Source of the DNA: Gammaproteobacteria bacterium
Lineage (GTDB): Bacteria > Pseudomonadota > Gammaproteobacteria > Steroidobacterales > Steroidobacteraceae
Reading direction: 5' to 3'
DNA: 64,000 nt
Assembly (NCBI GenBank): GCA_016874295.1
Contig: VGUH01000005.1
Span: 1-64,000 of the forward strand
A program made the position numbers and the translations under genes. The notes below the pieces were generated by a model. It was given only the letters and a program-made list of their open reading frames with translations, searched no databases and was not told the origin of the DNA. Below, in pieces: positions 1 to 1,323 of the stretch. Position 1 is the first letter of the stretch; each line of letters starts with the position of its first letter.

Positions 1-1082
1 GCATCGCGTACTGCGTGGGCGAGTTGCGCCTCAATCAAATGCGCGGCGAACTTGAGATTCTCCTCAAGCACCGTTCGCGCCATCGCACGAAATCCGTGAC
101 CCGTCATTTGCTCTTTGGGAATGCCGAGCGAGCGCAGCGCGGCATTGACGGTGTTCTCACTCATCGGTCGCAGCGGCGATCTCTCGCCGGGGAACACGAG
201 TTCCCGATGACCCGTTAACGGATGCAGTTCGCGAAGGATGGCGATGGCCTGTGACGCCAGCGGCACGATATGGGGCTGCTTGGTCTTGGAAGCGATAAAC
301 CTCCACTCGCCAGCCTCAAGGTCAATATCAGCCCATCGGGCTGACCGTAGTTCACCGGGGCGAACAAAAAGCAGCGGAGCAAGGCGCAAAGCGCACCGAA
401 CGATAAGCGTCCCGCCGTACCCGTCAATTCGGGCAAGCAAGTCGGGAATCGCCCTCGGGTCGGTGATTGCGGAGTAGTGCCGAATCGCGACAGGCTTCAA
501 CGCCCCACGCAGGTCTCGGCAGGGATCACTCAAAACACGACTGGTGGCGATAGCGTAGCGAAAGATGTCGGACAGGTTTCCTAACGCTCTGTGCGCGGTT
601 TCAACCGCCCCGCGCTCCTCGATGCGATGCAGCGCCGCCAGCACCTCGGGCGCGGTGACCTCGGCGATGGGTCGCGTTCCCAGCCACGGGTATACATCCC
701 TTTTCAGTCGCTCCCGAACCTTGACAGAGTGTTTTGGAACCCAGCCGCCTGACCTCTTTTCAAACCATTCCCAGCCGACAAACTCTAACGAATCCTTGGC
801 AGCGTACGCCTCTGCGCCCTTCGCTGCCTTCCGGAGCGCTGTCGGATTAACGCCATCCGCCAACAATTTGCGCATCTCATCTCGGCGCCCCCTTGCCACG
901 GCAAGTCCGACCTCCGGGTAGGCCCCGATAGCGCCGAGTTTCTCCTTGCCCCCGTAACGGTACTTAAACCGCCAGAGGCGGCTTCCGCTGGGCTGGACGA
1001 GCAGGTAGAGGCCAAGCCCGTCGGTAACCTTGTAGGGCTTCTCCTTGGGCTTGAGCGCCTTTAGGGCTTTATCCGTAAGCAT
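1..1082 (-). CDS. P4-family tyrosine integrase, C-terminus cut by window edge
   Basis: Site-specific tyrosine recombinase that would integrate and excise a genomic island. The frame is open from an ATG at 1082 to the left edge, 360 codons visible; the family is usually about 390-430 aa. Residues 1-90 form the DUF4102-type arm-binding domain, about 100-190 the SAM-like core-binding domain, then the catalytic domain. Visible catalytic elements are Arg241 in RPGELR, a Lys near 266-268 (SKTKQPHIVPL), His329 and Arg332 in GHGFR, and His356. The Tyr nucleophile lies beyond the edge. The gene follows the 3' end of tRNA-Ala on the same strand, the usual arrangement for P4-type islands, so the element lies to the left of the window. 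Confidence 0.93.
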   Translation of the reverse strand, partial: MLTDKALKALKPKEKPYKVTDGLGLYLLVQPSGSRLWRFKYRYGGKEKLGAIGAYPEVGLAVARGRRDEMRKLLADGVNPTALRKAAKGAEAYAAKDSLEFVGWEWFEKRSGGWVPKHSVKVRERLKRDVYPWLGTRPIAEVTAPEVLAALHRIEERGAVETAHRALGNLSDIFRYAIATSRVLSDPCRDLRGALKPVAIRHYSAITDPRAIPDLLARIDGYGGTLIVRCALRLAPLLFVRPGELRSARWADIDLEAGEWRFIASKTKQPHIVPLASQAIAILRELHPLTGHRELVFPGERSPLRPMSENTVNAALRSLGIPKEQMTGHGFRAMARTVLEENLKFAAHLIEAQLAHAVRD

Positions 1083-1153
1083 TTGGGGGTATCTCCGCTA
1101 CGGGAGTAACGCCGTACCCCCAGATCTACCCCCAAAATGCTCCGGATACCCCC
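1082..1153. repeat. TACCCCC heptamer cluster next to the integrase
   Basis: TACCCCC occurs at 1115-1121, 1127-1133 and 1147-1153. An inverted copy lies at 1082-1091 (TTTGGGGGTA) and mirrors TACCCCCAAA at 1127-1136. The inverted copy overlaps the integrase start codon. Position and spacing suit integrase arm-type sites or an autoregulatory operator; that function is inferred. Confidence 0.5.
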
Positions 1154-1187
1154 GGATGTCAATGTACTGCTACGTACGCGAGGGAAA

Positions 1188-1212
1188 CAAAAAACCCCTG
1201 TGTTTCAGGGGT
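1188..1212 (-). terminator. Rho-independent terminator after tRNA-Ala
   Basis: Read leftward there is a 7-bp stem (ACCCCTG with CAGGGGT, 1194-1212), a 5-nt loop and then six T residues (1188-1193). It would end the tRNA-Ala transcript before the integrase gene. Confidence 0.75.
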
Positions 1213-1247
1213 CTTCGGATTACCATGGACGGCTCTGGAAGAAGATG

Positions 1248-1323
1248 TGGTGGAGCGGAAGGGGATCGAACCCTCGACCTTCGCATTGCGAACGCGACGC
1301 TCTCCCAGCTGAGCTACCGCCCC
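1248..1323 (-). tRNA. tRNA-Ala (anticodon CGC)
   Basis: A 76-nt cloverleaf with encoded CCA (1248-1250). The acceptor stem GGGGCGG/CCGCTCC contains the G3-U70 pair that marks alanine tRNAs. The D arm is GCTC...GAGC, the anticodon loop TTCGCAA gives CGC, and the T loop is TTCGATC. The 3' end faces the integrase, so this tRNA is the likely attachment site of the element to the left. The gene stays intact because the element carries or restores the 3' end. Confidence 0.95.

Follow-up and report, generated by a model that had tools for sequence, protein, structure and literature searches.

The window, a stretch of 64,000 nucleotides, comprises positions 1-64000 of contig C5 in a 2.37 Mb genome assembled into 46 contigs. 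Near its left end lies an intact tRNA-Ala(CGC) gene (1248-1323, minus strand), which was called by ARAGORN and matched the Rfam tRNA family (RF00005, 63 bits). ARAGORN also reported a tmRNA at 873-1343, overlapping the tRNA and the neighbouring integrase gene. Since Rfam found only the tRNA there, we took the tmRNA call as spurious.

On the same strand, starting 166 bp from the 3′ end of tRNA-Ala, an open reading frame of 360 amino acids (3-1082, minus strand) leaves the window at its left edge. It encodes the N-terminal part of a P4-type tyrosine integrase, up to residue 360 (1-1082), with Pfam matches to Arm-DNA-bind_3 (2e-24), Phage_int_M (7e-33) and Phage_integrase (8e-14). The catalytic positions represented by the R of VRPGEL, the hairpin K, HGFR and LAH aligned with those of intact relatives, and the tyrosine is expected beyond base 1. 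Base 1 of the window is also base 1 of contig C5. Therefore, it is the assembly that truncates the gene, whose 3′ end is lost at the contig end. The preliminary description had placed a P4-type integrase with intact visible catalytic residues just past the 3′ end of tRNA-Ala and running out of the window, and the open reading frame, the Pfam matches and the alignment all agree with this placement. Across 46 related tRNA-linked loci, the distance from the tRNA to the integrase start was 162-306 bp, a range that includes the distance found here. The nearest integrases that we found were about 50-59% identical over their length, which makes this a divergent individual element and not a new kind. 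Among the viral contigs searched, relatives reached at most 57% identity (55% over the full length), and no copy of the island was found.

The same genome encodes a second P4-type integrase (C8:106868-107998), which is 52% identical to that of the window. The two integrases share their family, their layout and similar GGGGGTA repeats, but the one on C8 adjoins another tRNA, with a CAU anticodon and split by a group I intron, and has an AlpA-type regulator downstream. The C8 region (C8:106868-109205; L020:10767-13206) consists of the integrase at the 3′ end of the intron-split tRNA, a 174-aa ORF, the AlpA-type regulator and a zinc-binding ORF, after which the contig ends; this locus is a second island that the assembly truncates. 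The insertion in the CAU tRNA (L020:10323-10641) is 248 bp long and matches Rfam Intron_gpI (RF00028, 56.8 bits, E 9e-14). ARAGORN misses this tRNA gene as it stands and calls it once the insertion is removed. Such a group I intron is carried by tRNA-Ile(CAU) of Azoarcus.

A second copy of the tRNA-Ala 3′ end on contig C4

The final 14 bases of tRNA-Ala, CTTCCGCTCCACCA (1248-1261, minus strand), are found again at C4:1531-1544 in the expected orientation, which is fixed by the synteny of sucA and tRNA-Arg. A motif scan and genome-wide count gave exactly these two copies of the 14-mer, for a chance expectation of about 0.018 in the genome. The C4 copy sits 563 bp before tRNA-Arg(CCT) (C4:2108-2183) and about 0.7 kb before sucA, which begins at C4:2228. 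A longer second copy (17-25 bases) of the tRNA 3′ end was not found in the genome, as the core spans just 14 bp; this shortness counts against the island reading. Outward of the core, C4 resembles the relatives, with 24 bp at 96% shared with G001 (core and flank) and 534 bp at 70% with G003. C4:1-1530 and window positions 1-1247 showed no match in the same-genus relatives, and GC content is 0.54-0.61 in the visible parts assigned to the island versus 0.68-0.69 outside. Between the C4 core and tRNA-Arg, there is a Lys/Arg/Ala-rich ORF of 144 aa (C4:1604-2038; L019:1604-2038) with no Pfam match.

On C4:1-1530, an IS91-type transposase gene is represented by its 3′ part, along with four small ORFs of 80-121 aa, none of which matched a family above curated cut-offs. 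The first 99 bp of C4 are identical to a transposase copy on contig C10. We rejected this exact overlap as a link from C4:1 to C10, since it falls in an IS91-type transposase gene inside C10, adjoining guaA, and is thus a repeat. The two ends of the island lie on separate contigs, C4 and C5, and the assembly lacks the interior. No assembled sequence joins C4 to C5, which counts against the reading as one island, as does the integrase tyrosine being out of view. A search for an overlap of C5:1 with another contig gave none, and the first 200 bases of the window matched no other part of the genome either over their full length or exactly over a long run, the best other match (78% over 83 bp) being to the C8 integrase. 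The gap between C4 and C5 could hold more than one element.

Occupied and empty tRNA-Ala sites in relatives

In all six same-genus genomes, tRNA-Ala(CGC) is followed by tRNA-Arg(CCT) 5-854 bp further on, and none of the six has an integrase at the tRNA-Ala site, which is empty. Five of them have sucA further along: its distance from tRNA-Ala is 154-960 bp in four genomes and 8.4 kb in G004. In the sixth, G005, the contig stops short of sucA. Where the congener contigs extend far enough, sucA is followed by sucB and lpd. The tRNA-Ala/tRNA-Arg order is also found in relatives further removed; in several of these, either 3-12 kb of additional DNA precedes sucA or an integrase lies behind tRNA-Ala or tRNA-Arg. 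In one relative (G023), a degraded integrase is located at the same tRNA-Ala. In this family, insertions recur along the tRNA-Ala/tRNA-Arg/sucA stretch.

The integrases of G008 (L255) and G022 (L256), the latter degraded, lie just behind tRNA-Arg(CCT), and therefore the adjacent tRNA also serves as a site. Another relative, G035 (L192), has a partial second copy of tRNA-Ala (5162-5221; 60 bp, 98%, without the last 16 bases) 1.4 kb from the intact gene (6567-6642), on its 5′ side.

The preliminary description had read the start of the window as the edge of a genomic island at tRNA-Ala(CGC), and had proposed a search for a direct repeat of the tRNA 3′ end and a comparison with relatives for an empty site. 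The search led to the 14-bp copy at C4:1531-1544, beside tRNA-Arg and sucA, the expected chromosomal neighbours, and the far boundary is now placed at this core. The comparison bore out the empty site and showed that the integrase is not a gene fixed at this position in the genus.

Putative arm-type sites

Window positions 1115-1136 and C4:1445-1466 each contain two GGGGGTA-containing repeats (TGGGGGTA) spaced 12 bp apart. In the window, motif scan and enrichment point to a putative arm-type pair, TTTTGGGGGTA and TCTGGGGGTA (1115-1136, minus strand), and to a further putative site, TTTGGGGGTA (1082-1091, plus strand), which is inverted relative to the integrase and touches its start codon. The motif scan also gave a possible degenerate site, CGGGGGTA (1147-1154, minus strand). 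A 28-bp block that includes the window pair is identical to C4:1439-1466 at 26 of 28 positions (93%, E 1.7e-6), and its best 20-mer match of 18 exceeds all those obtained in shuffles (13-15, n = 12). In related loci, TGGGGGTA occurred 60 times in 23.4 kb upstream of the integrases versus 41 times in the remaining 1,064 kb of these loci, an enrichment of about 65-fold. Pairs with equal spacing were found in other related loci, either upstream of the integrase or at the far end. From the repeat pattern and the general biology of such integrases (PMC2951348), the TGGGGGTA repeats are best read as arm sites of the integrase. No related paper, judging by title, came up in a literature search that combined GGGGGTA with integrase, attP and tRNA.

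An independent element of about 10.8 kb from an uncultured proteobacterium (L106:9726-20573) has both ends on one contig, at tRNA-Leu(CAA), and its integrase is 53% identical to that of the window. Counted from the end of its distal tRNA fragment, a TGGGGGTA pair with a 12-bp spacing stands at -98/-86, the same position that the pair occupies on C4. It differs in its tRNA and in its cargo, which is unrelated to the visible part of the window's island. The genes of the L106 element include TMP_3 and VasI Pfam matches. In both elements, the stretch from the core to the distal arm sites includes a match to the IHF consensus (WATCAANNNNTTR). As a feature of the distal end, this match is only suggestive, because, among the arm-pair stretches listed, just two of 27 distinct ones have it, many of the 27 being integrase-proximal pairs where it is not necessarily expected.

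Interpretation of the locus

We adopted the Islander definition of a tRNA-integrated genomic island (PMC4383910), whose signature is that one side bears the regenerated target and the other side the displaced fragment. By this definition, both ends share a replicon at a plausible distance; the two ends here fall on different contigs. Further, a tyrosine-family integrase gene lies inside the element, an intact tRNA gene at one end and a displaced, correctly oriented tRNA fragment at the other, and relatives have an unoccupied site. At the present locus, these last four features correspond to the integrase identified by Pfam and its visible catalytic positions (the tyrosine being off the contig), to tRNA-Ala, to the 14 bp at C4:1531-1544 and to the vacant site of the six congeners. 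The Arm-DNA-bind_3/Phage_int_M/Phage_integrase architecture is that of Islander-class, CP4-57-like and pathogenicity-island type modules. As expected of P4-type integrases, an N-terminal arm-binding domain is present and putative TGGGGGTA pairs are found at both ends. The integrase lies next to an intact tRNA and reads into the island, as in Islander-class islands; unlike in those, the interior is unassembled here and the target is tRNA-Ala(CGC). The element is an individual of a well-known kind, the tRNA-integrated island.

We consider it very probable that a genomic island has integrated site-specifically into tRNA-Ala(CGC), at the final 14 bases of the gene, and that window positions 1-1247 are the integrase end of this island and C4:1531-1544 marks its far end. 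The island would have brought its own copy of these 14 bases, and tRNA-Ala would therefore have been left intact on the integrase side, on C5. The original 14 bases would have been displaced and would now mark the other end on C4. The integrase may bind the paired TGGGGGTA sites on both arms of the attachment site and cut within the 14-bp core. The island interior would correspond to the assembly gap between C4 and C5. We infer that C4 and C5 are physically linked through one island, and that the island is, or once was, mobile.

An island of this kind could by now be a decayed remnant, with a broken integrase or interior, that no longer moves. The transposase copy near the far end would fit such a state, as would the degraded integrase of G023 at the same tRNA, and nothing of the window integrase is seen past residue 360. 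The visible frame is open, however, all visible catalytic positions are intact, and the core and putative arm sites are present at both ends; we regard decay as unlikely. It could also be supposed that the window integrase and the C4 end stem from different elements stacked at the same tRNA, with at least two islands in the gap. Tandem arrays are among the recognised classes of tRNA island (PMC4383910), and the stretch up to sucA takes up extra DNA in several relatives. In addition, integrases of this family share one arm motif at many different tRNAs, and therefore the arm sites on C4 need not belong to the window integrase. However, the 26 of 28 bases shared by the two arm blocks include GAGCA outside the motif, which suggests one element, and the core has no third occurrence among the assembled contigs. 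We judge such stacking improbable. The view of the integrase as a chromosomal gene fixed beside tRNA-Ala has nothing specific in its favour and can hardly be maintained, being contradicted by the empty sites in the congeners, the departure of GC content from the flanks and the duplicated tRNA end on C4.

The neighbourhoods of related integrases indicate what such islands can carry, not the content of this island. In 21 of these loci, 78 neighbouring ORFs include type I and type II methyltransferases, restriction-type proteins, and HipA-like and Fic proteins, and the neighbourhoods contain restriction-modification and other PADLOC-listed genes. That the interior from C5:1 to C4:1 carries a previously undescribed accessory system, such as one for defence, appears very improbable; if it did, the system would sit in the unassembled part of the island. 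When an island ends on another contig, its far end can be found through synteny with relatives in which the site is empty, followed by a search for the tRNA core and paired TGGGGGTA sites. With the far end found in this way, a pair of occupied and unoccupied sites is now placed at tRNA-Ala(CGC)-tRNA-Arg(CCT)-sucA.
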